From Paraburkholderia ginsengiterrae (GTDB taxonomy: Bacteria; Pseudomonadota; Gammaproteobacteria; Burkholderiales; Burkholderiaceae), in assembly GCF_001645125.1 (NCBI RefSeq), contig NZ_LXKA01000109.1, positions 62,001-126,000 of the forward strand: a stretch of DNA of 64,000 nucleotides. The letters run 5' to 3'. Below, piece after piece: positions 3,500-59,477 of this stretch. Each line of letters begins with the position of its first letter. The stretch's first letter is position 1. Made by a program: the position numbers and the translations under genes. The notes beneath the pieces were generated by a model, which was not told where the DNA came from, did no database searches, and was given only the letters and a program-made list of their open reading frames with translations.

Positions 3500-4675
3500 A
3501 TGGGCTGGGAATACACCGACTTTCGACGCGAGGAACTCTACGAGGAAGTGTGGGCGGAGCCGGTTACGAAGGTTGCGAGACGCTATGCGATTTCCGACGT
3601 CGGGCTTAGGAAAATATGTCTGGACCTCGAAGTGCCGCTTCCACCGGTCGGCTACTGGGCCAAATTGGCTGCAGGCCGGACCGTGACGAGGCCTCCCCTT
3701 GGCACGACGAAGGGACCAACGACTTATCGCCGTTCTCGGTACATTGCGCCGTTAGACGACGTGCTCGACGCCCGATATCGTGAAAGTCTTGCAGAAGACT
3801 TACCGCATCGCCCCACAATACCAGACCTTCCCCTGCGGACATCCCTGGAGGACTGTTTGCCGCTCGCGAAGCGAATCGCGAAGAAGCTTGATGGCAAGGG
3901 GCGCGATGCTCAGGAATGGCGCCAGTGTGACGGCGCGGGCCTGATGTGGGTCGACGCATCAAATGCCAACAGCCTGCGTGCGGTGCTGCTCCTCAATCTT
4001 GTGCTCGAATCGGCGATGGCCGCAGGCTACGCTATTTCTGCCGATGCTAAAGGCGCCACTCGAGCATTCGTTTCCGTGCTGGACATCAAATTGTCGTTCA
4101 AAATTCGCGAAAGAAACCGGCGTGAACCTATCCCGCTGACGCGCGAACAGCGCCAGAAGAATGAACAGGTCGGATTCAACTTCTACACCCAGCAGTACGA
4201 ATATCATCCAACGGGCGAGTTCGATATCGCGGTGACCGAGCCCGATAGCAGCTATGAACTGGCAAAAATTGGCGACAGTCGGACCGCATCCGTTGAAACT
4301 AAAATCGTGGCGTTCATCGGCCGACTTCGTGAGCTGTCGATACGCCGACGTGTGAAAGCCGAAATCGACGCCAAGCGCCAAGTCATCGCTGAAGCCAAGG
4401 CTGCGGAGGAGCGGCGCCAGGCCGAAATACGAAGGAAGGCTCTCGACCGCCTCAAGGAGGTGGAAGAATGGGCGACTAGACTTGAGCGGGCAAATCGGCT
4501 GAGGAACCTTGCTGACAAGTTCCAAACCGAAAAACTGTCTTCAACCGACGGGGTGATTGACGCCGGCTGGATGCGCCGCGCGGCAGACTGGTTGGACCCA
4601 ACGGTAGTGCGACGTTGGGATGATATGGATGGTCCAGCAGTCGTTATTGCTGGAAAAGCGCCGTCGTGTCGGTAG
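3500..4675 (+). CDS. Conserved HTH/coiled-coil protein beside helicase genes
   Basis: A 391-aa soluble protein. The N-terminal 50 residues ([19 protein letters not shown], then [20 protein letters not shown]) look like a helix-turn-helix of a kind common at the start of uncharacterised island proteins. Residues about 265-330 are a charged, alanine- and arginine-rich helix, predicted coiled coil. No catalytic motif is visible. It sits 89 bp upstream of the large helicase on the same strand, so it may belong to that transcription unit as a DNA-binding or regulatory component. Start: ATG at 3500 after a purine-rich stretch (GGGGGCACGAAG). Function unknown; the DNA-binding role is inference. Confidence 0.6.
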
Positions 4676-4764
4676 AATCATTGGCCACAACGAAAATATT
4701 CGGCGACAGACCAAGTGCTCATTCTCGTGGGCGTTCGACCGGCCGACCATCGAGGGCAAACAAA

Positions 4765-7700
4765 ATGGACGTTTTTGAGTTTCGGGGAAAACTCGTTTCT
4801 GATTACGAGACATTCACGAGAAGCTTCACCCGTATCAAAGCGACAGACATCAAGGCGTACGTCGACCGGGCGTACGACTCCGAGCGCTATTGGCCCGCAC
4901 CGCTAATACAGGTAAACCCCAATTTCAAGACGGCAGCCACGGTTGATGCGCTCGTAAAAGAGGGAACCCTTCATAAAGAGTGCTCGCGCATTTTCCGTGC
5001 CGGAAAATCGGCTTCCAGTCCGGGCGTTTCGCTGACTCTGTTCAAACATCAAGAACAAGCCATAAGTTGCGCTCAGAATGGGGAAAGCTACGTACTGACG
5101 ACGGGTACAGGTTCGGGAAAGTCGCTTGCCTACTTTATTCCTGTAATCGACGGCATTTTAAAAGCCAAGGCGACAGATAGCACGCCGCGTACGCGTGCGA
5201 TTGTCATTTACCCGATGAACGCGCTTGCGAACAGCCAGATGGAGGAGCTCGGCAAGTTTCTCGCCGACTACGGCCAACATTCGCCTGTGACATACGGTCG
5301 GTACACGGGCCAAGAAAAAGACGAAGAACGTCAGCGGCTGGCCTCAAATCCGCCGGACATACTGCTCACGAACTTCATGATGCTTGAGCTCCTGATGACG
5401 CGTCAGGATGACAAGGATAAGGCCGTTATCCGCAATGCTAGGGGTCTGCGATTCCTTGTCCTCGACGAACTGCATACCTATCGCGGCCGACAGGGCGCAG
5501 ACGTCGCATTGCTCGTTCGCCGTGTGCGAGAAGCTCTCGCCGATGAGCTTCAGTGCATCGGGACGTCGGCAACGATGGCAACGGAAGGGTCAGAGGAGGT
5601 GAAAAACGCGAAGGTTGCGGAGGTGGCGAGCCGACTCTTCGGCACTAACATCGCAGTTGCCAATGTAATCACTGAAACCCTGCAACGGGTGACTCCTGAA
5701 CACCTGCTCGTCGAACATGTTCGGCACGAACTAGGGGCCGCGATACGAGCAGGGATTCCCTCCGAGCTGTCCTTCGAGGCACTAGCTAAACATCCGCTCG
5801 CTGTCTGGGTCGAGTTGAACTTGGGGCTGACGCGAGACGTAGGGCCGTGGCGTCGAGCTCGGCCAATAACGTTGACTCAAGCTGGCAAGCGGCTCGCCGA
5901 AGACGCGGGGATTTCTGAAGAGTTGGCGCGCAGCACCCTCGCGGACTTTCTGCTGCTGGCGTATCGAACCACGGACAAGCCCCCGCAGGATGGCGGCCGG
6001 AGCTTGTTCGCCTTCAAGTTGCACCAGTTCATTTCGGGAGGAAGCAAGGTCTACGGGACCCTTGAAGCCTCAGATAAGCGCTATCTAACTCTTGATGGCA
6101 GCCAGTATGTTCCGGGTGAGCGCGACCGGCGTCTATTTGCTCTGCATTTCTGCCGCGAGTGTGGACAAGAATATGCGCCTGTATGGGATGAGCACACCTC
6201 GAGCGGGCGCATGTTCAACCCACGCGGCATCGAAGAGCGCACGCACGAAGATGAAGACATCAAAAGCGGCTATTTCATGCCCGACACAACGGGTGTATGG
6301 GACGACACGCTCGACCGCTACCCGGAAACTTGGCTGGAAGTGAAGAAGGATGGCGACCTGAGGCTTAAGTCGACCTTCAAAAAGCGCCAGCCCCAGCACG
6401 TCCGCGTCGACGCGGAAGGAAAGCAAAGCCCTGACGGTACGCCGGGATGGTACATGCCCGGAAATTTTGGATTCTGCCTGCACTGTGGTGTGGTTCATCA
6501 AAGTGCAGGTAAAGAGTCGCTGAGGCTTACGGGGCTTTCTGGGGAGGGCAGAAGCTCGGCGACGACCATGCTCACGCTCTCCGCGTTGCGGTACTTGTAC
6601 GAAGAAGACGAACAACTGAAGGACGAAGCTAAAAAAGTACTCGGTTTCACGGACAATCGGCAAGACGCCGCGCTACAGGTCGGTCACTTCAATGATTTTT
6701 TGCAGGTTTTGCTGCAACGAGCTGCTCTATTGGCCGCCGTCGAAAAATCAGGTGGTTCACTGAAGGAGAGTGATATTCCTCACGCCGTGTTCACCGCCTT
6801 GGGTTTTGAGCGAGATGACCCTGGCGTGCGGGCGGAGTACATGCAGGAACCCGACGTTAAGGGCAATGCACGTCGCCAGGTACAGGATGTCATGCGGGCG
6901 ATTCTGGGCTACCGTGTCTATTTCGACCTGCGCCGTGGTTGGCGCTTCAATAATCCGAACCTGGAACAACTTGGGCTCGTGCGCATTGAATACCAGGACC
7001 TCGATGACCTTGCTGGTGACACTGGGGAGTGGGCGACAGCACCTTTGGCGCTGCAAGCAGCTTCAACGGTTGTCCGAAAAAAGCTTCTCAAGATGGTTTT
7101 CGATGCGATGCGGCAAGGTCTATGTCTATCTTCCCGCTATCTGGACCGTACCGAACTCGACAAGCTTAAAACGGCGAGCTTTGCCAACTTGCGTGAACCT
7201 TGGGGTTTCACCGAGGACGAAAACCCGGTTGCCGCGAATTGGTTCATAACGACCGGTCGACCACGTGACGAAGACAGACGAAATGTCGAATACCTTGTCT
7301 CCGGGAGCTCCCGTTCCAAATTAGGCAAGGAAATCAAACGGTCCAGCACCTGGAAAGAGGTCGACGCGAATGGGGTGGAAAGTAGCAATCCTCACGCCGC
7401 CAAAATCAAGGATGCTGATTACAGCGAAATCGTCGCGGCTTTGTTGAAGGCGGCCAAGTCTTATGGACTGGTCGTTTCGGAGGAAACGGAGTTTGGCATG
7501 ACCGGCTACCAATTGAACGGTACCGGCTTAGTGTGGACGTTAGGCGCAGGAAAAAGCGAACGCGTCGCAGATGACAATGCGTTTTTCCGTAGTCTTTACG
7601 GCAACATCGCAGGCATGCTTGCGAACCCGGTTCATCGGATGTTCGATTTCGAGGCACGTGAACACACCGCACAGGTAGAGCAAGACGACCGTATGGAGCG

Positions 7701-10080
7701 GGAGGCTCGTTTTCGCTTCACGCCGAAAGACCGCGAAGATTGGCTCAACGCCAACGGCAAACCGCTTGAATGGCTTCCGGTTCTGTTTTGCTCGCCGACG
7801 ATGGAACTGGGCGTCGACATCTCATCGCTCAATACAGTTTACCTGCGGAACGTCCCGCCGACGCCAGCGAACTACGCACAGCGCAGTGGCCGCGCCGGTC
7901 GTGCCGGGCAACCAGCACTGGTCATAACTTACTGCGCGGCACAGTCGCCTCACGACCAGTACTTCTTCCGCGACCCAGTACGTATGGTGCATGGTCAGGT
8001 GAATCCGCCAACGCTCGACCTGGCAAATCGGGAGCTCATTCAGAGCCATCTGCATGCGATTTGGTTGTCCGAGACCGGCAAAAAACTCGACAACAGCGTG
8101 CGTGGCCTCTTAGACATGAACGACCCGGCAGCGCCGCTTACCGACGACTATCGCCAGGAGATGGACGCCGATGGACCGCAGCGGCGCGGCCACGCGCGCG
8201 GCTTACGCGTCCTAGACATGCTTTCCTCAGAACTCACCCCTGACAAGGCTCCGTGGTTCACCGAAAATTTTCCAGAGCAGGTTTACCGGCGCGCCTTCGA
8301 CGCGTTTGACCATGCGCTTGACCGCTGGCGAGAGTTGTTTGCGGCGACCAAGCGGCAGATGGAAATCAACCAGAAGGTGATGAACAACCCCGCTGCGAGC
8401 GAGCGGGAACGCCGCGACGCAAAACAACGTCACGACGAAGCGTTCCGTCAGCAGTCGCTTCTTCTGCAGGAGTCAGGGTCAGCGAATTCGGACTTTTACA
8501 CATACCGGTATCTTGCCAGCCAAGGCTTCCTACCAGGCTACAACTTCCCCCGTCTTCCGTTGATGGCTTATATCCCGGCACGGAAAGGCAAAGTCGGACG
8601 AGAGAACTTCCTTTCTCGTCCGCGTTTCCTCGCGCTTTCGGAGTTCGGGCCGTACAGCCTCATCTATCACGAAGGCAGTCAATACAGAGTGACGAGAGCT
8701 CTGCTGTCGGTCGGTGCAGAGGACCAAGTCTCGTCGGGTACGAAGCTTACGACGGAAGTGGCCCGCATCTGCCCTGCCTGCGGCTATGGGCATTTTCGCG
8801 GTCAACGCGACGCCGATAGGTGCATTTCATGTTCGGCGCTGTTGGCCGATGCTGTCGCGGTGAAGAACCTCTATCGTATCGAGAACGTCAGCACCAAACG
8901 TGCTGAACGCATTACTGCGAACGAGGAAGAACGAGTCCGCCAAGGCTATGAAATGCAAACGACTATCCAGTTCGGCGAGCAGGATGGAACCTTGCAGGTT
9001 CGTCATGCAGAGTTGAAAGACGAAGACGGAATTGTTCTGGAACTGCAATATGGGTCAGCGGCGACGGTCTGGCGAATGAACTTGGGTTGGCGTCGACGCA
9101 AGGAAAAAAGCATCCATGGGTTCTCCATAAACCCTGTGTCAGGGCATTGGATGGGCGGAGCGAATGAAGAAGGGGACGCTGACGGTGAGACGGCTCCAGA
9201 TAAGACACCTGCGCAGCGAATTGTTCCGTACGTCGAAGACCGTCGCAACGTGCTGATTGTCCGACCGGTCGAAGAACTCGACATAAAAACCATGGCAACG
9301 CTCCAGTACGCGCTTAAGCGGGGTATTGAAGCGGTGTATCAACTCGAAGAAAGTGAACTGATGGCAGAGCCGCTTCCGAAGTCAGACCTGCGACGTTCAA
9401 TCCTGTTGTATGAGTCGGCTGAGGGCGGTGCGGGCGTTCTGACGCGGCTGGCCTCGGAGCCCGGCGCGTTGGCGTTGGTCGCGGCCGAAGCGTTGAGCAT
9501 CATGCATTTCATTCCGCCCGTGAACGGAGATTGGGTGACTGGTGAGCTGGAAGAGCACAAGGATGATGAGGGTAAGCCTCTGTGCGAAGCGGGCTGCTAC
9601 AAATGCCTGCTCTCGTACTACAACCAACCAGACCACACTCGCATCGACCGGCAAGACGTCGACAACGATGGCAAGGTACTGGAGGTGCTGCGCAGGTTGA
9701 CGCGAGCTCAAGGTTCTGTGGGTTCTTTCGGTCGGACACCCGAGGCCCAAGCCGGAGAGCTAAACCGCATCTCCGGGAGCTCGCTAGAGCATGCCTGGCT
9801 GAAATATGTTGAAGAGCACGGGTATCTCAAGCCGGACCGAGGGCAGGAGCGGATTGAGCGCTGCAATACAGCTGCCGATTTCTTTTATGTCGACTGGAAA
9901 GCCGCCATCTTCGTAGATGGCCCGCATCACGATGTGGAAAAGCAGGCCGACGCCGACGCAGCAATCAATAGATGCCTGGAAGGGGCCGGCTACTACGTTG
10001 TGCGCTTCCCCAAAGAAGTGGACCGCTGGTCGGAAATCTTTGCGACTCATGCTTCGCTGTTCGGAACAGGAAACCAATAA
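4765..10080 (+). CDS. DISARM-related DEAD/H helicase with DUF1998 and C-terminal Vsr/DUF559-like nuclease domain
   Basis: A 1771-aa superfamily 2 helicase. Motif I is TGTGSGKS (about residue 113), motif II DELH (about 234), motif III GTSAT, and motif [13 protein letters not shown] (about 1039). Cysteine pairs suggest zinc sites (FCRECG, FCLHCG, CPACG...CISC). The four-cysteine DUF1998 element [18 protein letters not shown] is near residue 1606. In DISARM, helicase (DrmA) and DUF1998 protein (DrmB) are separate; here they appear in one chain. A final segment (about 1660-1771) with FVDGPHH followed by [12 protein letters not shown] resembles the Vsr/DUF559 nuclease fold. The ATG at 4765 ([10 protein letters not shown]) was chosen over the GTG at 4666 because it has GAGGG upstream and looks like the usual N-terminus. 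The stop overlaps the next start. Confidence 0.85.
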
Positions 10081-12929
10081 TGTCCACGGTTCAAGCTACA
10101 TATCAACCGGGCAGCCTTGTCTCCGCACGTGGGCGTGAGTGGATTGTCCTTCCTCAGTCGACCGAAGACACACTTCATCTTCGTCCGCTCGGTGCGACCG
10201 AGGACGACGCCACGCTCATCTACCTGCCTATCGAACCGACACCAGTTGGTCCGGCGACGTTCCCCTCGCCGACCGTACAGCAGGCGTCAAACTTCGCGGC
10301 CGGGCAACTGCTGCGCGATGCGCTCCAACTAAAGCTACGAACTGGGGCAGGTCCCTTTCGCAGCTTCGGGAACATTGCCGTCGAGCCAAGAGCCTATCAA
10401 CTCGTGCCGCTGCTTATGGCTCTGAAACAGGATGTCGTTCGCCTCCTGATAGCGGATGACGTCGGCATCGGCAAAACCATCGAAGCGGCGCTCATTGTTC
10501 GAGAGCTTGTAGACCGTGGTGAGATATCACGGGTCGCGGTGCTTTGCCCGCCGCATCTTTGCGAACAATGGCAGCGAGAGCTGATGGACCGGTTTCACAT
10601 CAATGCGGTCGTTGTACGTAGCACAACGGCCAGCCGTCTTGAGCGGGGGTTACCGGCGAACCAATCAGTGTTTGAGGCCTATCCGTTTACCGTGGTGAGC
10701 CTAGACTACATTAAGTCCGACCGTCGGCGAGACGAATTTCTACGAGCCTGTCCCGAGTGCGTCATCGTCGATGAAGCACACACTTGCACTTATAGCGGCC
10801 AAGGCCGTCAGCAGCGTTACACCTTGTTGAAGGGGTTGAGCGAAAATCCAGAGCGACACATGGTGTTGCTTACGGCGACGCCACACTCCGGAGACGACGA
10901 TTCTTTTTATAACTTACTTGGCTTATTGAATCCTGCCTTCCGCGAGTTAAAGGACATCCCGGCGGACGGCCGCAAGCAACTACGCGAAGAGCTTGCAAAC
11001 CACTTCGTCCAGCGTCGCCGACCTGATATCGACGAGTGGCAGGACCGCCAACTCTTTCCCGAGCGTCTGACGGCTGAAATCTTTTACAAGCTCACCGGCG
11101 AGTGGGGGCAGCTCTTTGATGATGTGCTTGAATACGCACGCGAACTTGTCATCCGGGCGGAAGGGCAAGACTTGATGCAGCAACGCATGAGCTGGTGGGC
11201 CGCATTGGCGCTTCTGCGCTGCATCTCTTCCTCTCCCAAGGCTGCCGTGAACGCTCTACGGACTCGCCTTCAGGGGCGAGCGCTGGCCGGGCCGGATAAT
11301 ACGGAAATGCTAACGCTCGAGGACGCGGAGGAACAAGGCAGAGAGCGCGTACTCGACGGCTCAGAAGACAACCTGACAACCCAGGATATCGAGCCGGGCG
11401 CAAAAACGGAAGACAGCGTACTGTTGACGAAGCTCGTCGCACGCGCCGAAGAGCTGTCCGGCGCAGTCAAAGACCCCAAGCTAAAGCGCCTTATCGACCA
11501 CCTGAAAGAACTCACTGGTGCAGGCTTTCAGCCGGTGGTTTTCTGCCGCTACATCGCTACGGCTCACTACGTCGCCGAGCAATTGCGCTCGGTTTTCCCG
11601 CACCACGAGGTCAAGGCCGTGACTGGCCAGTTCGCGGCGGCGGAACGGGAAACTGCCGTGGAGGCAATGAGCGAGGCGCAGCAGCGCATCCTTGTTGCCA
11701 CGGATTGCCTTTCGGAAGGTATCAACCTTCAGAATCTCTTCACTGCGGTGGTCCATTATGACCTGTCGTGGAACCCAACCCGCCACGAACAACGCGAGGG
11801 CCGCGTTGACCGATTTGGCCAGGAGGCCCGCGAGGTCCGCACCACCATGTTATACGGTCAGGACAACCCGGTCGATGGGGCTGTGTTACAGGTCATCCTG
11901 CGCAAAGCGGAGAGCATCCGCAAGGAACTCGGTGTGCTCGTTCCCATGCCCGATGACCAAGGAAAACTGACCCAGGCACTCGTAGGTGCCGTGTTGTTGA
12001 GAAAGGGGACAACTGCCGCCAAAATGCCCCAGCTCGGTTTGGATTTCGGTGCACCGGAAGAGGCCATCGACACGGCTTGGCAGTCTGCGCGAGAGAAGGC
12101 TTCGAAAAACCGCACCCTCTTTTCTCAGCGCCGTCTCAAACCGGAAGACGTCCTTCCCGAGTGGCAGAAGACGCTGGCTGTACTTGGTGGTGAAGATGAT
12201 GTCGAACGTTTCGTCAAGCGCGCTGCTGTGCAACTCGGAGCACCGCTCGAGCAGAGCACTAAGGGCGGCGCCAAACATTGGAAGCTTCATGCGGCTAGCT
12301 TGCCATCAGGGATACGCGAGCGTCTTGAACGAGAGGGGCTCGCCGGCACTTTGCGTATCGATTTTCACCAACCCGTCGCGGCGGGCGGTCAATACATTCA
12401 TCGCACTCATCCGCTGGTGTCCGCACTGGCCGACCATCTGCTCGAAACAGCGTTGGACGAACGCCGGGAGCCGAAGGAAGTCGGCGCAGATGCTGTGGCC
12501 CGTGCAGGCGCCATTTTCACCGATATGGTCGATGTTCGTACTGTGGTGCTGCTGATTCGTCTGCGCCACCAATTGACGGCGACACACCGCGGCAAGTCTC
12601 AATTGTTGCTCTGTGAAGAAGCGCTGGCTGTCGGCGTGCCGGCCGACGATGAGTCCAGCCTGCTGGACGACGCAACAGCGCGTGTGCTCATGGCTACAGA
12701 GCCCACCCGCAACATGCCTCGGCCCCTGCGAGACCAGCACCTCCAGCGGGCGCTTGACCAATTGCCCGGTTGGCAGCCTGCGCTGGAAGACCTGGCTCGC
12801 ACCCGAGCTCAGTTGCTACTTGAAGACCATCGCCGCGTTCGGGAGGCTTCCGGTGCACGAGGGGAATATCGCGTCACGCCGAGCCTTCCTGTAGATGTAA
12901 TGGGTGTCTTTGTGCTCATCCCGGCCTGA
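10080..12929 (+). CDS. SNF2/HepA-type helicase, DrmD-like
   Basis: A 949-aa SNF2-family ATPase. Motif I is ADDVGIGKT (about residue 124), motif II VDEAH (about 231), motif III LLTATPHSGDD, and the C-terminal lobe ends DLSWNPTRHEQREGRVDRFG (motif VI with two arginines). TPHSGDDDSFYNLL and the long insert between lobes are typical of the RapA/HepA branch that includes DISARM DrmD. The ATG shares its A with the TAA of the upstream helicase, so the two are coupled. Expected role: an ATP-driven DNA translocase working with the methylase and the DUF1998 helicase. The last 250 residues have no motif I know. Class 1 DISARM carries a DrmD with an N6-adenine methylase, matching this neighbourhood. Confidence 0.85.
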   Translation: MSTVQATYQPGSLVSARGREWIVLPQSTEDTLHLRPLGATEDDATLIYLPIEPTPVGPATFPSPTVQQASNFAAGQLLRDALQLKLRTGAGPFRSFGNIAVEPRAYQLVPLLMALKQDVVRLLIADDVGIGKTIEAALIVRELVDRGEISRVAVLCPPHLCEQWQRELMDRFHINAVVVRSTTASRLERGLPANQSVFEAYPFTVVSLDYIKSDRRRDEFLRACPECVIVDEAHTCTYSGQGRQQRYTLLKGLSENPERHMVLLTATPHSGDDDSFYNLLGLLNPAFRELKDIPADGRKQLREELANHFVQRRRPDIDEWQDRQLFPERLTAEIFYKLTGEWGQLFDDVLEYARELVIRAEGQDLMQQRMSWWAALALLRCISSSPKAAVNALRTRLQGRALAGPDNTEMLTLEDAEEQGRERVLDGSEDNLTTQDIEPGAKTEDSVLLTKLVARAEELSGAVKDPKLKRLIDHLKELTGAGFQPVVFCRYIATAHYVAEQLRSVFPHHEVKAVTGQFAAAERETAVEAMSEAQQRILVATDCLSEGINLQNLFTAVVHYDLSWNPTRHEQREGRVDRFGQEAREVRTTMLYGQDNPVDGAVLQVILRKAESIRKELGVLVPMPDDQGKLTQALVGAVLLRKGTTAAKMPQLGLDFGAPEEAIDTAWQSAREKASKNRTLFSQRRLKPEDVLPEWQKTLAVLGGEDDVERFVKRAAVQLGAPLEQSTKGGAKHWKLHAASLPSGIRERLEREGLAGTLRIDFHQPVAAGGQYIHRTHPLVSALADHLLETALDERREPKEVGADAVARAGAIFTDMVDVRTVVLLIRLRHQLTATHRGKSQLLLCEEALAVGVPADDESSLLDDATARVLMATEPTRNMPRPLRDQHLQRALDQLPGWQPALEDLARTRAQLLLEDHRRVREASGARGEYRVTPSLPVDVMGVFVLIPA

Positions 12930-12960
12930 TGCCAGCCCCCGAACAGGAATCCAATAGAAA

Positions 12961-15900
12961 ATGGCTCGCCGCTTAACACAAGAACTCGCCTTCTCCGCCC
13001 TCGCCATCGAGGGTGGCTTGCTGGCGCCTGACTTCCTCAACAAGGTCGCACATCTGGAAGCATCGGAGCAATCCGAGGCAGACTACGACGTCCCTCGCGG
13101 GCTCAAGCTTCGCGACGAAATCGGTCGCTACTGGAAAATTGCCCAGAACCTCTGGCAAGACTTCGACGCCAAGCGCCGCCGGTCGGACCTCGATACGCAT
13201 GCCATCACCGTGCGGGACTTCCTGGAGCCCTTGTGCAGGCAGGTGCTGGGTTTTGCGGATTTGCGGCCAATCGGCCAAGTCGTGCTTGATGAGCGTATTT
13301 TCCCGATTGGCTTCTGCGCAGGGGAGGGTCGGGTGCCGGTGATTTTCGCCGCGTACGACCAGGGGCTGGACAAGCCGAGCAGCCGCCACGGGGACGGAAT
13401 CCGCCGCCGCTCCCCGTTTCTGCTCACACAGGAATACCTGAACGCGAGCGAAAAGGCGTTGTGGGCGGTTGTTAGCAACGGGCTCAGGTTACGCGTCTTG
13501 CGCGATAACCCAAGCTTTACCCGTCCGGCGTATATTGAGGCGGACCTAGAGGCCATCTTTACCGAGGGATTGTATCCAGACTTCACTGCTTTGTGGCTAC
13601 TGACTCATGGCACCCGCTTCGGCAAGGTGGGGGCGGAGCCTGCTGACTGTCCGATAGAGCGTTGGCGTAACACCGTGCAAGAGGACGGCATTCGTGCCCG
13701 CGAACGACTGAGGGTGGGTGTCACCGAAGCGCTGAGGGCGCTCGGCACAGGTTTTATCGTGCATTCCGCTAACGGTCTTCTACGAGAGCGTATTCAGAAT
13801 GGCGAACTCTCGCCGCAGGCGTTTTTCGAGCAACTTTTGCGGTTGATTTACCGCCTCATTTTCCTCGCCACAATCGAGGACCGTGAACTGGTGTTCGCAC
13901 CGGACGCCAACCCCGAGGCTAAGGCTCGGTACCATGCCGGCTATAGCCTGCAGCGCTTGCGCCAACTCGCCGCGCGTCGACGCAGCTATGACCGGTATTG
14001 TGACCTTTGGCAGGTGCTCGCCATCACCGTTGCTGGCTTTGAAAATGGCGAGCCAGCACTTGGGTTGCCCGCCTTGGGTGGCCTTTTCGAAGCTAACCAA
14101 TGTCCGGACCTTGACGGGGCAGCTCTGGAAAATCAGGCTCTGCTGTCGGCGCTGTTCAGCCTCTGCTTTTTTCGTCAGGGAGCAGCACTCTCGCGGGTCA
14201 ACTACCGTGACATGGATTCCGAAGAACTCGGAAGCGTCTATGAAAGCTTGCTGGAGTTAGTGCCGATGGTCACCCTCGCTGGCGGCGCCCGCACGTTCGG
14301 CTTCGTGGACGATGGCGAGGAGGGAAGCACTAAAGGCAACGCCCGCAAGCTCACCGGTTCCTACTACACCCCCGATAGCCTGGTGCAGGAACTCATCAAG
14401 AGTGCGCTGGAGCCAGTCATTGAGCAAACGCTGAAGGCCAACCCGCAGGAGCCGGTCAAGGCGCTGCTCGGTTTGACGGTGTGCGACCCAGCCTGCGGCT
14501 CCGGCCACTTTCTGCTTGCTGCAGCCCGTCGCATCGCCGAGGAAGTCGCGCGACTCAACGCCCCGGATGGTAACCCGTTGCCGGAGGACTACCGCCGCGC
14601 TCTTCGCGACACGGTGGCTCGCTGTATTTACGGCGTCGACAAAAATCCCATGGCAGTTGAACTGGCCCGCACTGCGCTCTGGCTGGAAGCCTATACGCCT
14701 GACCGGCCGCTGACCTTCCTCGACCATCACTTACGCTGCGGCGACGCATTACTCGGGGTGCTCGACCCCGCTATCTTGGACCGGGGCATTCCAGACAAAG
14801 CATTCAACGCGCTTTCGGGCGACCACAAGGACGCGGTCAAAGCCATCAAGAAAGCTAATCGCGATGCACTCAAGGCCATAGAAAAGACCCGTGAGAAGTC
14901 CCATCAGATGCTGAGCCTCGGGCTGGAGCAGCTGGGGGATATTGCAGCGCTCGAGGCACTCCCTGACGACACTCTGGCCGCGCTGGAGGCCAAGCGTGCG
15001 GCCTATCGCGATGCCGAGGCTCACATTGCTACCTCCTGCGCTCGACTGGCCGCCGACCTCTTTGTTGCCGCCTTTGTTTTGCCTAAGACAACGGAGAGCG
15101 AGCGCTGCGTGCCGACGAGTCAGGACTTGTGGCTGGTAATGAATGGTAGTGCACCACGACCGGACGTGGCCGCTGTGGCGGCCCAGGCGGCGCGCACGGC
15201 GCAAGCCTTCCACTGGTGGCAAGTCTTTCCGCAGGTTAAGGCAAGGGGCGGCTTCGACGTGTTACTTGGCAATCCGCCATGGGAGCGCATCAAGCTTCAG
15301 GAAGAAGAGTTCTTTGCCACCCGCAGCCCGTCAGTCGCCGCTGCGCCGCACAAGGCAGAGCGTGGGCGGCGTATCGGCCTGCTTGCAGAAGGAATGCTGC
15401 TGCATACCCTGTATCCGGAAGCGGAGGCCGCGCAGGGTCTGGTCCCACCGAATCGCGCTGAGCAACAACTCTATGCCGATTTTCTTGCCGCGCGACGCGG
15501 GGCCGAGGCGGCCAGCCTCTTTGCCCATGATGCTGGGCGCTATCCGCTCACAGGCGTGGGCGATGTGAACACCTACGCGCTGTTCGCCGAGACCTTTGCG
15601 CAACTGGTGAGCGAGACTGGGCGGGCCGGCTTTATCGTGCCGACGGGAATTGCCACTGACGACAGCACTAAGGCATATTTCGAGGCGATTTCTCAGAATG
15701 GCCGTCTGTCAACACTGCTAGCTTTTGAGAACGAGGAGTTCATCTTTTCTGAAGTACACCATGCTTTTCGCTTTTGCGTCCTAACTTTGGGCGTAGCCGA
15801 AAGGGCCGAATTTGTCTTCTTTGCGCGTCAACCGTCGCAAGTGCATGATTCACGCCGCCGTTTCACCCTGACTCCCGAAGAATTTCGCCTCATTAACCCG

Positions 15901-17400
15901 AACACTCGGACATGCCCTGTATTTCGCAGTCAGATGGATGCCGAACTGACCAAGAAGCTCTATCTGGCCGCGCCGGTGCTTATTGCCGAAAATCCTCCAG
16001 AGCAGAACCCGTGGGGCATCCGTTTCGCAACAATGTTCCATATGTCCAACGACAGTGACCTGTTTCACGATGCCCCTGCTGCTGACCGGCTGCCGCTGTA
16101 TGAAGCAAAGATGATTCACCAGTTCGACCACCGTTGGGCCACCTATAGGGCGAACGGGGAATGCGAGGATGTAAGTGAGGTCGAAAAATTTGACCCTGAA
16201 TTCAGCGTATTTCCACATTACTGGGTCAACACCTCCGAAGTTGAGCAGCGTCTCGCGGACAAGCGCTGGGACAGGGGGTGGCTGATTGGGTGGCGAAATA
16301 TTACGGGTGTGGAGAAGATTCGTGGGCTGATTGCATCGGTTATGCCACGTTGTGCTGTTGGGAACAGTCTAACACTGCTATTTCCTGCTCCCATGCCGGC
16401 AGCCGTTTATGCATGTTTGTATGGAAATCTTGGGGCGCTAGTTTTCGACTTTGTATTACGCCAGAAGCTCGGCGGGGCAAATTTTAATCAATTCATTGCC
16501 CGACAGTTACCTGTAATACCTCCCGACCGCTACGCCGATGCCGACGTTGCCTTCATCGCACCGCGGGTCCTCGAACTTACCTACACCTCTCATGAGGTCA
16601 AGCCTTGGGCGCAAGACCTCCAGTACGACGGTGAGCCTTTCGCTTGGGACCCCGAACGCCGCGCGTTGCTTCGCGCCGAACTCGACGCCTACTATGCTCG
16701 TCTCTATGGCCTCACGCGTGAAGAACTGCAGTACATCCTTGACCCCGCGGATGTGATGGGTGACGACTATCCATCGGAAACCTTCCGTGTGCTCAAGAAC
16801 GATGAAATCCGAGAGTTCGGGGAGTATCGGACACGGCGATTGGTGCTCAAAGCGTGGGACAGTTTGGAATCGGGCGAACTGAAGTCAGACTCGTCGCCTG
16901 TGCGCTCGGTGCCAGTTGTTTATTCGGACCTCGCCGTCATCCGTAGCGAGGCGGAAGCGGAGTTTGCTAGTCTAATTGCTGCCCTGATAAAGCAATATCA
17001 GGATGGAATTTCCGTTGCGGCCCTGCAGGCTTTTGTCAGCCGGGCGACGGCTCCGGGGTACCCCGAATTGCTCCTTGAACCCAAAGAAGCAGAAAGGTTG
17101 CAATCTCTTGTCAATGGCATGAGTGCGCTGACTGCACCTGAAAGCCTGACCCACATTCCTCCGCTTGTTTATCGACTTGAGGTAAGTGGCGCGATTCGGT
17201 CTGAACGCAGGGGTGGCACGACAGTTTTCATTCGTGGGGCTAGTTCCCTCCCGGCCGACGTACGAAGCTTGCCCGAGCATCTTGAGTTGGCTAAGTTGAT
17301 GTTGAAGCTTGAGGCGCGACGGGAGCTTGCGAGAAAGAACGATGTTCGTCTCAATGAACCGGCTGAGCGCGGAACTGATGCCGGGACTCGCACTGGCTAA
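12961..17400 (+). CDS. Large Eco57I/PglX-type N6-adenine DNA methyltransferase
   Basis: A 1479-aa protein with SAM-binding motif I (CDPACGSGHFLLAA, about residue 510) and catalytic motif IV NPPW (about residue 770), as in N6-adenine methylases of the Eco57I class, BREX PglX and DISARM DrmMI. The roughly 450 residues before the methylase core are long enough for a targeting or nuclease region, but I see no clear PD-(D/E)xK there. The C-terminal third should hold target recognition. It lies 31 bp after the SNF2 gene, with CAGGAA before the ATG. The likely job is to mark host DNA so the two helicases and nucleases spare it. A stand-alone type IIG enzyme is possible but less likely given the flanking helicases. 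Confidence 0.88.
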   Translation: MARRLTQELAFSALAIEGGLLAPDFLNKVAHLEASEQSEADYDVPRGLKLRDEIGRYWKIAQNLWQDFDAKRRRSDLDTHAITVRDFLEPLCRQVLGFADLRPIGQVVLDERIFPIGFCAGEGRVPVIFAAYDQGLDKPSSRHGDGIRRRSPFLLTQEYLNASEKALWAVVSNGLRLRVLRDNPSFTRPAYIEADLEAIFTEGLYPDFTALWLLTHGTRFGKVGAEPADCPIERWRNTVQEDGIRARERLRVGVTEALRALGTGFIVHSANGLLRERIQNGELSPQAFFEQLLRLIYRLIFLATIEDRELVFAPDANPEAKARYHAGYSLQRLRQLAARRRSYDRYCDLWQVLAITVAGFENGEPALGLPALGGLFEANQCPDLDGAALENQALLSALFSLCFFRQGAALSRVNYRDMDSEELGSVYESLLELVPMVTLAGGARTFGFVDDGEEGSTKGNARKLTGSYYTPDSLVQELIKSALEPVIEQTLKANPQEPVKALLGLTVCDPACGSGHFLLAAARRIAEEVARLNAPDGNPLPEDYRRALRDTVARCIYGVDKNPMAVELARTALWLEAYTPDRPLTFLDHHLRCGDALLGVLDPAILDRGIPDKAFNALSGDHKDAVKAIKKANRDALKAIEKTREKSHQMLSLGLEQLGDIAALEALPDDTLAALEAKRAAYRDAEAHIATSCARLAADLFVAAFVLPKTTESERCVPTSQDLWLVMNGSAPRPDVAAVAAQAARTAQAFHWWQVFPQVKARGGFDVLLGNPPWERIKLQEEEFFATRSPSVAAAPHKAERGRRIGLLAEGMLLHTLYPEAEAAQGLVPPNRAEQQLYADFLAARRGAEAASLFAHDAGRYPLTGVGDVNTYALFAETFAQLVSETGRAGFIVPTGIATDDSTKAYFEAISQNGRLSTLLAFENEEFIFSEVHHAFRFCVLTLGVAERAEFVFFARQPSQVHDSRRRFTLTPEEFRLINPNTRTCPVFRSQMDAELTKKLYLAAPVLIAENPPEQNPWGIRFATMFHMSNDSDLFHDAPAADRLPLYEAKMIHQFDHRWATYRANGECEDVSEVEKFDPEFSVFPHYWVNTSEVEQRLADKRWDRGWLIGWRNITGVEKIRGLIASVMPRCAVGNSLTLLFPAPMPAAVYACLYGNLGALVFDFVLRQKLGGANFNQFIARQLPVIPPDRYADADVAFIAPRVLELTYTSHEVKPWAQDLQYDGEPFAWDPERRALLRAELDAYYARLYGLTREELQYILDPADVMGDDYPSETFRVLKNDEIREFGEYRTRRLVLKAWDSLESGELKSDSSPVRSVPVVYSDLAVIRSEAEAEFASLIAALIKQYQDGISVAALQAFVSRATAPGYPELLLEPKEAERLQSLVNGMSALTAPESLTHIPPLVYRLEVSGAIRSERRGGTTVFIRGASSLPADVRSLPEHLELAKLMLKLEARRELARKNDVRLNEPAERGTDAGTRTG

Positions 17401-17409
17401 GGGGGAACG

Positions 17410-19395
17410 ATGGGCAGTTGGCTTCAGGCATACCCGCCGACCAGGAAACTCCCTAGGCTCTGGGTTGAGCGGTTTTGGCTCATTGATTCAAAGGAGCCGC
17501 TGACCATCGTCCGTAAGGTTGACCTGCAGCCGGGCATGAACATCGTCTGGGCAAAGGAGCCAGAATCCAACGATGCCTCTGGGCTGGCCAGTGCCGGTCA
17601 TGGGGTTGGCAAGACGTCCCTTTGTTTGCTGCTTCGCTACTGCTTAGGGGACGACGCCCCCTCTATCGCCGCACTTCGCGAGAAGGCTGCGGCGTCTTTC
17701 CCACGGGGAGGCGTCGCGGCAAAGATTCATATTGATGGCATAGCCTGGCTCGTATTCAGACCGTACGAAGCTAATAGCCATTCGACAGCAGGGGTCGATT
17801 GCGAGCTTGAAGCTTTGTTCTCAGAAGGCGCTACCCGTGGCGGATTTCCATTGTTTCTCGCAGCCCTAAGCGAGTCCTTTATAACAAGGCTCCCCGCGTC
17901 TTCGCTTCCGGGAAGCAGCCAGGCCCTGGAATGGAAGCACTTACTGGCGTGGTGCGTTAGAGACCAAAAAACGCGATTTGACGGGTTTTTCCACTGGCGG
18001 GATGGCGACGGCCTCGGATTTCGCCGTTCTCGGCAGGACCCACCTCTATTCGTGCGAGCCGTACTAGGACTTCTCGACGCTGAGGGTGACCGCCTCATTC
18101 GCGAGGTGGAGTCATCTCAGACGGAACTCAAACGCATCGAGGAGCAACTGCTCTTGCTAGAGCGTGAGCAGGCCTATGGGCTGACTTACGTCGAGGCGCG
18201 GCTCCGCACTTGGCTTCGCGCTGGACCTGACGTCCCAATCTTTACTAGTATCCTAGGACCCTCGCTGGAGGTAATGGTAGCCGACTTGAAGTCTAAAGCG
18301 GAGGCTTACGAGGCCGAAGTCGACAGAGAGTCTGAACGGTTAGAAGATGCGATTGCACCGCTAATTGTCAACCTTGGTGAGTTGCGGCAAGAACTCACGC
18401 TGCGTACGAAAGAGAAGGAAATCGCACAGGCCTTACTTGACGCGAATCAGGCGGAATACACGCGCTTGCTGACCGAGCTTCAGGAGTTAAATAGTCTCGT
18501 TGGCCTATGTCGTTTGGGTCAGGTCGAGTTTTCAGATTGTCACCATATCTCGACGAGACGCAGCACGTACAATTTGCCTCAGCTTATCAACCAGCGTGCG
18601 GCAAAGGCGAATGAGCCACAGCGGCGGCTCGAGCTGCAGGAGGCCAACCGACTCGAAAGCGAATGCCGAAAAGAACTTGAAACTCAAGAGTCACTCGTCA
18701 ACAAGAAGCGTGTCGAGGTCCGTCGGCTCCAGGTACGAAAGGGAACAAGCGAGGCACAACGAAACTCTCTCGAGGAGCTTTGGGATGATTTGAAGTCTCG
18801 CGTACTGGCCCGTGAGAACGGTGCCGCGTCGCAGTCATTGGAGCAAAGTCGGACGCAACGGGACCTTCAAGCGCTAGACCTGAACAAAAAACGAGCCGCA
18901 CTGCTCAAGCGAGACCACGAGCGCTCGGAGCGAGCGACCACTTTGCATCGGCTTACTCAAACGGTCGCCGCGCGCCTGCTAGGGGAGTCTGGCCAGGGCC
19001 GGTTTATTCCGGATTCGGATGACCGGCTTTTCGAGCTTAAACTCGGCGGTGAGGCATATCAAGTGCTCGAGGTCTTGCTTGGTGACATTACCTGTCTGAT
19101 TGATTCTGCAACCACCGAAGCGAGTCACTATCCGGGCTTTCTGGTTCACGACTGCCCACGTGAGGCCGACATGAGCGAGCGCCTTTATCGGGAGTTCCTG
19201 TCGACTGTGGCTGACGCAGCTATTGAACTGTCCGTCATCCAAGGTTCCGTTCCCTTCCAATATATTGTAACCACAACGTCTCCGCCCCCGGAAGCTCTTA
19301 AGACAGACAGTCACCTGGCGCTTGTTCTGCAGCCGGGCTCTGATGAGGGGTTGCTTTTCAGGCGACGACTCGGGCCGGGAATGCTAAGTTTTTAG
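17410..19395 (+). CDS. SMC/Rad50-like coiled-coil ATPase of the DISARM-like locus
   Basis: A 661-aa protein with a Walker A near the N-terminus (GHGVGKTSL, about residue 65), long heptad-rich helices (about 220-310 and 325-510), and a late acidic strand FLVHDCPREADM (about residue 577) that fits a Walker B plus catalytic glutamate. This is the split-head layout of SMC/RecN/Rad50-like ATPases, and resembles ATPases annotated DUF2326. No LSGG signature or CxxC zinc hook is evident. It begins 9 bp after the methylase stop with GGGGGAAC before the ATG, so it is almost surely co-expressed. Standard DISARM does not include such a protein; it may act as a DNA-end or structure sensor. Confidence 0.75.
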   Translation: MGSWLQAYPPTRKLPRLWVERFWLIDSKEPLTIVRKVDLQPGMNIVWAKEPESNDASGLASAGHGVGKTSLCLLLRYCLGDDAPSIAALREKAAASFPRGGVAAKIHIDGIAWLVFRPYEANSHSTAGVDCELEALFSEGATRGGFPLFLAALSESFITRLPASSLPGSSQALEWKHLLAWCVRDQKTRFDGFFHWRDGDGLGFRRSRQDPPLFVRAVLGLLDAEGDRLIREVESSQTELKRIEEQLLLLEREQAYGLTYVEARLRTWLRAGPDVPIFTSILGPSLEVMVADLKSKAEAYEAEVDRESERLEDAIAPLIVNLGELRQELTLRTKEKEIAQALLDANQAEYTRLLTELQELNSLVGLCRLGQVEFSDCHHISTRRSTYNLPQLINQRAAKANEPQRRLELQEANRLESECRKELETQESLVNKKRVEVRRLQVRKGTSEAQRNSLEELWDDLKSRVLARENGAASQSLEQSRTQRDLQALDLNKKRAALLKRDHERSERATTLHRLTQTVAARLLGESGQGRFIPDSDDRLFELKLGGEAYQVLEVLLGDITCLIDSATTEASHYPGFLVHDCPREADMSERLYREFLSTVADAAIELSVIQGSVPFQYIVTTTSPPPEALKTDSHLALVLQPGSDEGLLFRRRLGPGMLSF

Positions 19396-19563
19396 CCAAT
19401 TCCAAGCGGCGACTGATAGCGGCGAGACAGGAGGCTTTATGCATGATTTGCACATGTTACAACCTGTTCCGGCACCTGGCAGCCTGTCCTGGGCACCTCT
19501 TGGCTGTCGGAGGGCACATCAAAGCGTTTGCCTAGGGAAGGCGGCGCCCGCACGAGGCATAGT

Positions 19564-20394
19564 ATGAATAGCACAGTCGGATATTCCAGTGTCGATGCGG
19601 TACCGCCGTCTCCGATTCAGTGGAACATTCTCGAGCAAACTCGTGTCGAAAAGGCCGCGTCTGATGGCGGTTTCGACATTACTTTGACGCGAGAGGGAAG
19701 CTGGCTCGTCTTTCGGTCAAGCGCCTTCTCCCAACGCCTTGGCGTTGAACAGCAGTCCGCCCACACCTTCCGCGTGGAGTTTTCAGACTTGACGTGGGGA
19801 AAGACAGTGGCGGAAGACTGTTCGCTTCTCGTCGTGCAGCAGGAAGGGCTGTGGCCCATAGTCGCAAGTAACGTGACAGGCTACGACTTCCTCCATCACG
19901 TGCTACGTCGCGCAGCAAGCCTGTGTCGCGTCCTAGCGACCGAAACTCTCGGTCAGTTTCGCGCTGCCACCGTTGACTTGCCTGCTTCTACTGAAGCTGA
20001 AAGACTGGTAATTCAGCGGGTGGGCCAGGACATCTTCCGACGCGGCCTCATCGAATATTGGCAAGGCCAGTGCGCTGTCACGCAGCTCGATGTTATTCCA
20101 TTGCTGAAGGCGTCCCACATTCGACCGTGGGCTGCTTGCGATACGGATGTGCAGCGACTGGATGTTTTCAACGGTCTCCTCTTGGCGCCGCACGTAGATG
20201 CCTTGTTCGATGGAGGCTGGATTTCATTCGGCGATAGTGGCGAAGTGATTGTGAGTGAACTCTTACCTATGTCAGCCCGCTCGCATCTGGGCGTGCGACC
20301 CGATTGGAAGTTGGCATCTTTGACCGACTGTCACAAGGCATATATCGCTTACCACCGCGACAAGGTCTTTCGCGAGCAGACTAGACTTTGGTGA
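19564..20394 (+). CDS. HNH endonuclease, last gene of the DISARM-like locus
   Basis: A 276-aa protein with a C-terminal HNH_2-type domain: CAVTQLDVIPLLKASHIRPW (about residues 176-195) and then DVFNGLLLAPHVDALFDGGW (about 204-223). SHIRPW, N and H of this arrangement form the beta-beta-alpha metal site found in many restriction-type HNH nucleases. The N-terminal 140 residues are beta-rich and may recognise DNA or a partner. The ATG at 19564 follows GAGGCATAGT; the upstream in-frame codon at 19528 lacks such a site. It lies 168 bp downstream of the SMC-like gene, far enough for its own promoter. It is a candidate effector nuclease for the block, or an independent single-gene restriction factor. 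Confidence 0.78.
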   Translation: MNSTVGYSSVDAVPPSPIQWNILEQTRVEKAASDGGFDITLTREGSWLVFRSSAFSQRLGVEQQSAHTFRVEFSDLTWGKTVAEDCSLLVVQQEGLWPIVASNVTGYDFLHHVLRRAASLCRVLATETLGQFRAATVDLPASTEAERLVIQRVGQDIFRRGLIEYWQGQCAVTQLDVIPLLKASHIRPWAACDTDVQRLDVFNGLLLAPHVDALFDGGWISFGDSGEVIVSELLPMSARSHLGVRPDWKLASLTDCHKAYIAYHRDKVFREQTRLW

Positions 20395-58211: not shown

Positions 58212-59135
58212 TCAGATTTCGGCCTCGTCTTGAGGCGACGCGGTGACCGCCTCCTTCACCTGCTCTTCTTCGAATGATTTGAGCGTCCTGCCCTCTGCCG
58301 TCATCCAGAGCTTCGGGCCGCTCGAGGCCTGCCCACGGATGACAGCGAGTGGTGCGCTCGCCGAGTCGAACACGTAGTCTTGTGTGAAAACAAGAACGTC
58401 ACCCTGCGGCGCGAGCACCCCTTTGTCGATAAGTGACGTGCGTAGCCGATTATAGTTGTGCCGACTAAACGCATCACTCACCACCGAGACCGCGGTCGCC
58501 CCCTTGAGAACCCTCAAACCCGCGCCCGTGTAGATAGCCTCGGCCTTGAGCAAGTCACGGGAGAAGTAGAAGCGGGGCTCGTCCGGTGAAAGTAATGGCT
58601 CCCTGTTCGATGACACAGCAGAAGCTATGTCGGCGACATCGAATATCGAGTATCCGAGCACGGCCAGTAACGTCTTGGCGACCTCAAGAACGTCGTCGCA
58701 ATCTGCCTGCTGTCCCGGCCTCAGAACGGTCCTCTGACCTGCGTTCCCGTTTTCCAAGACGAACCTCCGTGCCGTTTGGGCTTCTTGGATGCATCGCTCC
58801 TCAATGTAGTATGTGTGGGAATGTGTCAGGTTATCCGTCTTCGACGAGATGATGAGTGCATGGTCCCAGAACTCTTTCTGAAGATGCTGGTCGAGCCGCT
58901 TTACGATGTTCGCTGTCTGTCCGACGTAAAGCTGCTCCCGCCCATCTTCGTCCTCCCCGACGAGCAGGTAGACAACGCATCCTTCGTTGGCGCTTTCAGG
59001 CATCGCGACGTAGGCAGCGAGACGCCGTCGCGGCACCTGCGTGACCTTGACAAGATGCATCGTGAATTCGGCAACACGGATGCCGTCCGGCACACCTTCT
59101 GGAAGATAAATCTGGATAGTTTTTGGTCGAATCAC
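58212..59135 (-). CDS. GIY-YIG nuclease-like protein with DUF4357
   Basis: A 307-aa protein. It starts IRPKTIQIYLPEGVPDGIRV, the usual leader of this family, from a GTG at 59135. GIY-YIG features follow: CVVYLLVGED and LYVGQTANIVKRLDQH (catalytic arginine in IVKRL) and the glutamate of YYIEERCIQEA. A C-terminal DUF4357 reads LLKAEAIYTGAGLRVLKG and SVVSDAFSRHNYNRLRTSLI. Such proteins are found in defence islands and near restriction genes. Role probably DNA cleavage or nicking. The adjacent Mrr-like gene is divergent. Confidence 0.78.
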   Translation of the reverse strand: MIRPKTIQIYLPEGVPDGIRVAEFTMHLVKVTQVPRRRLAAYVAMPESANEGCVVYLLVGEDEDGREQLYVGQTANIVKRLDQHLQKEFWDHALIISSKTDNLTHSHTYYIEERCIQEAQTARRFVLENGNAGQRTVLRPGQQADCDDVLEVAKTLLAVLGYSIFDVADIASAVSSNREPLLSPDEPRFYFSRDLLKAEAIYTGAGLRVLKGATAVSVVSDAFSRHNYNRLRTSLIDKGVLAPQGDVLVFTQDYVFDSASAPLAVIRGQASSGPKLWMTAEGRTLKSFEEEQVKEAVTASPQDEAEI

Positions 59136-59477
59136 AATGAGAGGCGCCAAGGGGCGGTTGCAGTCCAGTGAGCGACGAGTGACGACGCCAGCTTCCCTGA
59201 AGTCTACCGGCGCGGAGTGCAACCGTGTGATTGAAGTAGTTGATGCGCGCAGAGCAGCCATTTTTCGACTACTCCTTCTCGTCTTAAGCGGTCCGCATAA
59301 AACTGCTTACGTTCAACCATCCCGTCAGGCTTGAGCAAAGCTCTTCGCCAACCGCAAGCGCCCCCACAAGGTGGGGAGCGTACAGATGGGTTAGAGTGCT
59401 GCCAGAGGTTGTCGTGCTGGCGCGACAGAGACGAATTCATAGCAGCTTCAATAGAGCCGCATGAGGCGAGGTCAGAG
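59136..59477. other. 342-bp divergent intergenic region with a hairpin
   Basis: Lies between the divergent GIY-YIG and Mrr-like genes and should hold both promoters. A hairpin, CCCCAC-AAG-GTGGGG at 59362-59376, is the only clear structure. No gene seen. Confidence 0.4.

Follow-up and report, generated by a model that had tools for sequence, protein, structure and literature searches.

A probable ARMADA type I operon in Paraburkholderia ginsengiterrae, with an HNH endonuclease as a regular fourth gene beyond an exchangeable slot

Which defence system do two helicases, a methylase, a coiled-coil ATPase and an HNH nuclease form when they are encoded in one run, and which of them belong to it as a rule? 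Such a run lies in a 64,000-nucleotide stretch of a Paraburkholderia ginsengiterrae contig, hereafter the window, in a genome (G000) of 8.5 Mb and 393 contigs; the nearest relatives of its core are found in Caballeronia and Burkholderia. The five genes follow one another uninterrupted on the plus strand. The first (4765..10080, in an ORF open from 4666) encodes a YprA/DruE-like SF2 helicase with a fused MZB/DUF1998 region and a putative C-terminal Vsr/DUF559-like domain, and the second (10080..12929, ORF open from 9972) a RapA/BrxHII-like (DrmD/DpdE-like) SNF2 helicase. Both starts are taken from homologues, most of which begin near ORF residues 28-35 and 36-44, respectively, making 4765 and 10080 the likely positions; the YprA stop and the likely SNF2 start then have one base in common. 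Next come a 1479-aa PglX/DrmMI/type IIG-like N6-adenine methyltransferase with the motifs DPACGSG and NPPW (12961..17400) and a 661-aa LmuB/YydD-like SMC coiled-coil ATPase (17410..19395), with gaps or overlaps of at most 31 bases among these four genes. The HNH endonuclease gene (19564..20394, start again inferred, ORF open from 19528) begins approximately 170 bases after the ATPase gene. An earlier note on this DNA had listed the same co-directional genes, and all are present. The sixth that it counted, a 391-aa protein at 3500..4675 on the plus strand, is taken as a neighbour outside the system, since it has no phmmer match with E<=1e-3 in the ORFs of the 92 other loci described below, some of which are truncated upstream.

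Profile searches with PADLOC assign the YprA protein to DruE at 300 bits versus 50 for DrmA, the SNF2 helicase to the DpdE/DrmD type at 700 and 299 bits, and the methylase to the DrmMI/type IIG type at 216 and 145 bits. The coiled-coil ATPase yields a weak LmuB match (36.5 bits), and Pfam places the last gene in HNH_2. The 257-, 391- and 381-aa proteins of the window have zero PADLOC matches and no family assignment. In a 2025 preprint by Bell et al. (PMC12458937), ARMADA type I is described as YprA, a BrxHII-like helicase and a PglX-like methylase, in that order, the YprA being nearest to that of Druantia and carrying a C-terminal Vsr nuclease that is predicted to be active. The window has this content and order from 4765 to 17400, with DEAD, Helicase_C and MZB all in one 1804-aa chain, and in its relatives the same three-gene order is the rule wherever the contig lets it be seen. 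Ten window proteins between 34 and 21793 show no UvrD family, and a PADLOC check for Druantia III has no DruH among the matches listed for them. As to DISARM class 1, MZB is confined to the YprA chain of these ten proteins and no PLD family occurs in them.

With moderate confidence, we read the locus as an ARMADA type I operon, predicted to act against invaders, with more genes than have been described for it. In the comparison of loci, a constant core of YprA helicase, RapA/BrxHII-like helicase and PglX-like methylase and a regular HNH gene flank a slot whose contents vary among close relatives; in the window, this slot contains one LmuB-like SMC ATPase. The core of ARMADA type I is already known; what is new is the HNH nuclease as a fourth gene, the exchangeable slot and the frequent degeneracy of a nuclease motif. 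In the main text of PMC12458937, 'SMC' is absent and 'HNH' occurs just in one reference title, neither being a component there. The antiviral role of the operon is a prediction. The earlier note had called the locus DISARM-related with DrmC missing, and had set the SMC-like ATPase and the HNH protein outside the DISARM set; the DrmD-like and DrmMI-like proteins and the absence of a PLD family from the ten proteins bear this out. Its DrmA and DrmB in one chain turn out to be a YprA of the ARMADA/DruE type. The comparison of gene order that it proposed gave the same core order in relatives where the contig permits. It had left the choice between a variant and a distinct system. The three-gene core maps to ARMADA type I, and a match to a named system was the note's own criterion for refutation, so that little is left of the distinct-system claim.

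The comparison rests on 93 loci, 80 from a genome collection and 13 further ones including the window. The former are the best 80 of at least 485 relatives (at least 591 pattern matches) ranked by the RapA profile, which tilts the sampling to near relatives of the window RapA; hosts nonetheless include Pseudomonadota, Myxococcota, Verrucomicrobiota, Spirochaetota and Bacillota. Of 20 neighbourhoods considered outside that collection, eight were omitted: three on contigs equal in length to those of L086, L089 and L094 and taken as duplicates, one coreless and four cut short. The main count is of the 61 loci whose contig extends at least 5 kb beyond the methylase; in the other 32 of 93, either the methylase was not recognised or the contig ends within 5 kb of it. 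This count is without L144 and L153 (HNH present, short contig) and includes L105, which has an HNH gene, and L094 and L134, which have none. For distances and slots, loci with a nearby HNH gene were kept at any contig extent, giving a set of 55 that takes in L144 and L153. L133, where the contig carries an HNH gene but a methylase was not recognised, enters the genome-level count only. A RapA tree was built with FastTree from 58 rows, three of the 61 loci having no 700-aa RapA ORF; some of its branches are long.

The HNH gene bears on the alternative that survives best, though we consider it unlikely: that ARMADA type I is a three-gene core, and that HNH, SMC and the others are independent defence genes gathering downstream, as in defence islands. 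An HNH gene lies downstream, always in the one orientation, in 54 of the 61 loci, and its presence requires three changes on the RapA tree, a number as low as this being reached in 0 of 500 shuffles. Across the 55 loci, the HNH profile match begins -3 to 8674 bases after the methylase stop; this distance is at most 191 bases in eight loci and -3 to 0 in three, which argues against mere accumulation. HNH distances also follow those of the core RapA (r 0.82, 33 loci, 0 of 2000 permutations). Furthermore, among 300 genomes of the window's taxonomic order, a full-length HNH (>=243 bits) occurs in 14, the next-best match being one of 183 bits to the HNH domain only. Twelve of the 14 fall among the 14 genomes in which an ARMADA-type YprA scores >=685 bits, and the remaining two are G384, where HNH sits at a contig end, and G556, where no ARMADA was found; in this one order, the full-length protein is thus almost confined to ARMADA genomes.

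On the side of independent genes, seven of the 61 loci have no HNH gene (L076, L091, L092, L107, L094, L134 and G186), and one locus, L195, has an SMC-HNH pair without a core. Whole-genome searches revealed no full-length HNH in the first six of the seven, and none lies within 16.6 kb in G186. At the genome level, a full-length HNH is present in 64 of 91 genomes, a lower bound since many are fragmented and such assemblies can lose the gene. For 28 further loci, mostly truncated by contig ends, eight genomes have it and 20 do not, 17 of these 20 being labelled MAG (L114, L122 and L136 are not). Genuine absences exist, and HNH is not universal. As to what the protein does, its residues H197, N215, D224 and D228 (ORF numbering) correspond to the active-site H, N, D and D of VcaM4I; in a check for an N-terminal EVE domain, VcaM4I aligned over residues 145-284 of the HNH model only. 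HNH is probably a nuclease effector.

The core carries a putative nuclease of its own. At the YprA C-terminus, a DFFY...(V/I)DGPHH motif, which we take to be Vsr-like, is intact in the window (DFFY...VDGPHH), and DUF559 matches there at 19.7 bits, just below the cut-off of 20.6. Across the 58 loci that could be tabulated (three of the 61 have no YprA ORF of 1600 aa), 23 have an intact motif, 17 of them with HNH, and 35 a degenerate one, 34 of them with HNH (Fisher p 0.013). The exception, L134, has SMC without HNH on a contig that continues, the gene after SMC presumably being aconitase-like. Tabulated by genome, motif against HNH gives 18/11/40/5 (74 loci, p 0.009), and further degenerate-motif genomes without HNH are L122 (an isolate, on a short contig), L147, L152 and G484. 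The motif changes state only twice on the tree, so p-values of ~0.01 overstate the link, and the pattern represents a consistent order of events and not many independent trials. In a large clade, the putative built-in YprA nuclease would thus have decayed, and HNH is probably the main cutter. Separately, the preprint has the type I nuclease predicted active (PMC12458937), and in the branch studied here the motif is often gone.

Between methylase and HNH lies a slot of 0-8.7 kb. In the 55 slots examined, SMC occurs 23 times, a GmrSD_N-type gene seven, one AAA_15/AAA_21 ATPase family five and a second such family six, and reverse transcriptases four, with others, RES being one of the slot families, found one to three times each; family names are those of representative proteins. 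Where slot genes co-occur, SMC comes first, followed by reverse transcriptase, GmrSD and then HNH; L082 and L140 are examples. The edges of the slot can be sharp. For instance, L128 and L127 share 91.7% DNA identity from YprA through the methylase stop, their slots (3.2 and 5.6 kb) have no blastn match over 100 bases, and identity resumes at 94.5% from the HNH start. L128 and G517 likewise have core and HNH in common (90%), with a 936-aa protein in one slot versus SMC in the other, and their methylases diverge in the C-terminal part. Among 74 non-independent pairs with RapA identity >=80%, drawn from few clades, nine have identical slot families (three of them both empty) and 44 have none in common. 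That the GmrSD_N, reverse transcriptase, AAA_15/AAA_21 and RES families resemble separate systems favours independent genes, as does the recruitment of auxiliary nucleases by BREX loci described in PMC12839542. We nevertheless prefer the larger ARMADA type I operon and, tentatively, go one step further. ARMADA type I may be a chassis for defence that has an exchange slot built into it. Core and HNH would serve as constant flanks, possibly as homology arms, between which cassettes for sensing or effector function, namely LmuB-like SMC, reverse transcriptase, GmrSD and AAA ATPases, replace one another with the operon unbroken; HNH would have taken over cutting, after which the helicase nuclease decayed in the large clade.

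SMC is the commonest slot occupant (27 of 61 loci; weak partial matches, in sets of two, five and two, are left aside) and always stands first after the methylase. On the 58-row tree its presence requires 18 changes, of which well-supported branches force 17; this is no better clustering than by chance, since 191-199 of 500 label shuffles gave a number as low. A quite improbable alternative is that SMC and HNH form a dedicated sensor-nuclease pair, Lamassu- or Septu-like, to which ARMADA is merely a neighbour. It would account for the LmuB-like character of the SMC, for the pair standing alone in L195, for HNH directly following SMC in six of eight plasmid records, and for HNH starting within 2.3 kb of the methylase in 11 of the 23 loci with both genes, leaving room for little besides SMC. 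SMC and HNH distances correlate as well (r 0.40 on 12 loci, a value reached in 13 of 2000 permutations). However, 32 of the 55 HNH-bearing loci are without SMC, other genes intervene in 12 of the 23 loci with both, SMC adjoins the methylase and not HNH, and the presence of one is independent of the other (Fisher p 0.69, 61 loci). Further, although the LmuB SMC-like ATPase expected of Lamassu is present, PADLOC lists no LmuA among the families of the ten window proteins. Coreless SMC homologues are three of 20 examined. SMC distances follow those of RapA (r 0.66, 27 loci, 0 of 2000 permutations), and together with the correlation with HNH this suggests some lasting pairing; YprA and RapA give r 0.98 (27 loci, 0 of 2000). 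All these correlations, including that of HNH with the core, show shared history and are no proof of interaction. Of the SMC sensor and HNH effector proposed in the earlier note, a probable nuclease effector is retained and an obligate partnership is not.

A variant DISARM with HNH in place of the PLD protein DrmC is very improbable: the DrmD-like and DrmMI-like proteins would suit it, but the YprA scores as DruE far above DrmA, DUF1998/MZB is found in the YprA chain only, no PLD family occurs in the ten proteins, and the gene order fits ARMADA type I.

For the ARMADA type I operon, its anatomy, its conservation and the apparent hand-over of nuclease function suggest HNH as effector and SMC as an optional clamp, and a mechanism can be proposed. 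The methylase would mark host DNA, and both helicases would load on, and then translocate along, unmarked or abnormal invader DNA (replicating, 3'-tailed); DruE, a relative, favours 3'-tailed DNA (PMC13192584). HNH would cut this DNA, alone or beside the Vsr-like domain of YprA. SMC may use ATP to clamp DNA ends or other structures, aiding sensing or passing DNA to the nucleases, and would be an optional plug-in, as would the other modules of that slot (GmrSD, reverse transcriptase, AAA ATPase). Type II, the one among the ARMADA types tested by its authors, gives direct, non-abortive defence in E. coli and depends on each of its four genes (PMC12458937); the type I core is expected, by analogy, to combine self-marking with translocation on foreign DNA. 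A 2026 review lists how ARMADA restricts DNA as unknown (PMC12904381), and HNH is a concrete candidate effector for type I. In L108, L135, L138 and their kin, the helicase nuclease is degenerate and HNH adjoins the methylase; these look like minimal four-gene systems. With the sharp-edged exchange of cassettes within one operon, the core, effector and plug-in modules can be separated and tested.

Among known systems, ARMADA type I is closest, with the same gene content and order, DUF1998 in a single chain and a putative C-terminal Vsr-like domain; unlike it, the present loci have HNH as a regular fourth member, a slot that can hold an LmuB-like SMC and, in many relatives, a degenerate C-terminal nuclease motif. 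ARMADA type II has three protein families in common with the window but differs in gene order and has ArmD, a GajB-like/RelE fusion protein that is absent here. DISARM class 1 shares a DrmD-like helicase, a DrmMI-like methylase and a YprA family helicase, whereas the window is without a separate DrmB or a PLD protein and its YprA is of the Druantia/ARMADA kind. The slot SMC is like LmuB/YydD of Lamassu in its size and SMC fold, in having the Walker B aspartate followed by a residue other than glutamate (23 of 23) and, in five of 23, in its CPxC hook; unlike in Lamassu, no LmuA was found beside it among the families listed, and it is set in a restriction-modification-like operon. The HNH protein resembles the EVE-HNH modification-dependent endonuclease VcaM4I in its HNH domain and four catalytic residues. 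Finally, the auxiliary effectors of BREX and related systems described in PMC12839542 also place extra nucleases, GmrSD and HNH types among them, around a restriction-modification-like core, but here the slot has a fixed place between two regular genes.

The exchangeable slot between the methylase and the HNH endonuclease gene of the ARMADA operon holds, in the compared loci L082, L083 and L140 and in genome G505, an SMC gene followed by a gene for a reverse transcriptase protein. These reverse transcriptase proteins range from 446 to 1325 aa, and their C-terminal part, as judged by eye, is presumably nitrilase-like. On contig C2 of G505, the HNH gene of the ARMADA locus (L052) is split by a transposase-like gene.

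Additional genes, which we take to be AlbA/schlafen-like, occur between the SNF2 helicase RapA and the methylase in genomes G517 and G484 (loci L043 and L050), a hint that the operon has another insertion point, one used less often. In four loci from the phylum-level sample (L067, L069, L070 and L071), the methylase reads as at least two ORFs, which in L067 and L071 are separated by a 192-aa ORF on the reverse strand.

The ARMADA-SMC operons of L193 and L194 are both carried by large plasmids and are adjoined by genes for a Mu-type transposase and TniB (15624-18119 in L193, 13609-16377 in L194), with a TniQ gene additionally present in L194. The transposase and TniB genes are a possible vehicle for these operons. 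On the Paracoccus versutus plasmid L195, an SMC gene is paired with an HNH gene (10932-13686) although the ARMADA core is absent, and the pair lies about 2 kb ahead of an ORF that is presumably serine-recombinase-like.

Elsewhere in the window, an Mrr_cat restriction endonuclease domain occurs in a 536-aa protein (59331-60938) that adjoins a DUF4357/GIY-YIG protein (58215-59261), and together they form a second defence-like patch. Upstream of the ARMADA operon lies a Septu-like pair (34-1616), comprising a PtuA-like ATPase, the N-terminal portion of which would fall ahead of the window start, and a PtuB-like HNH protein.
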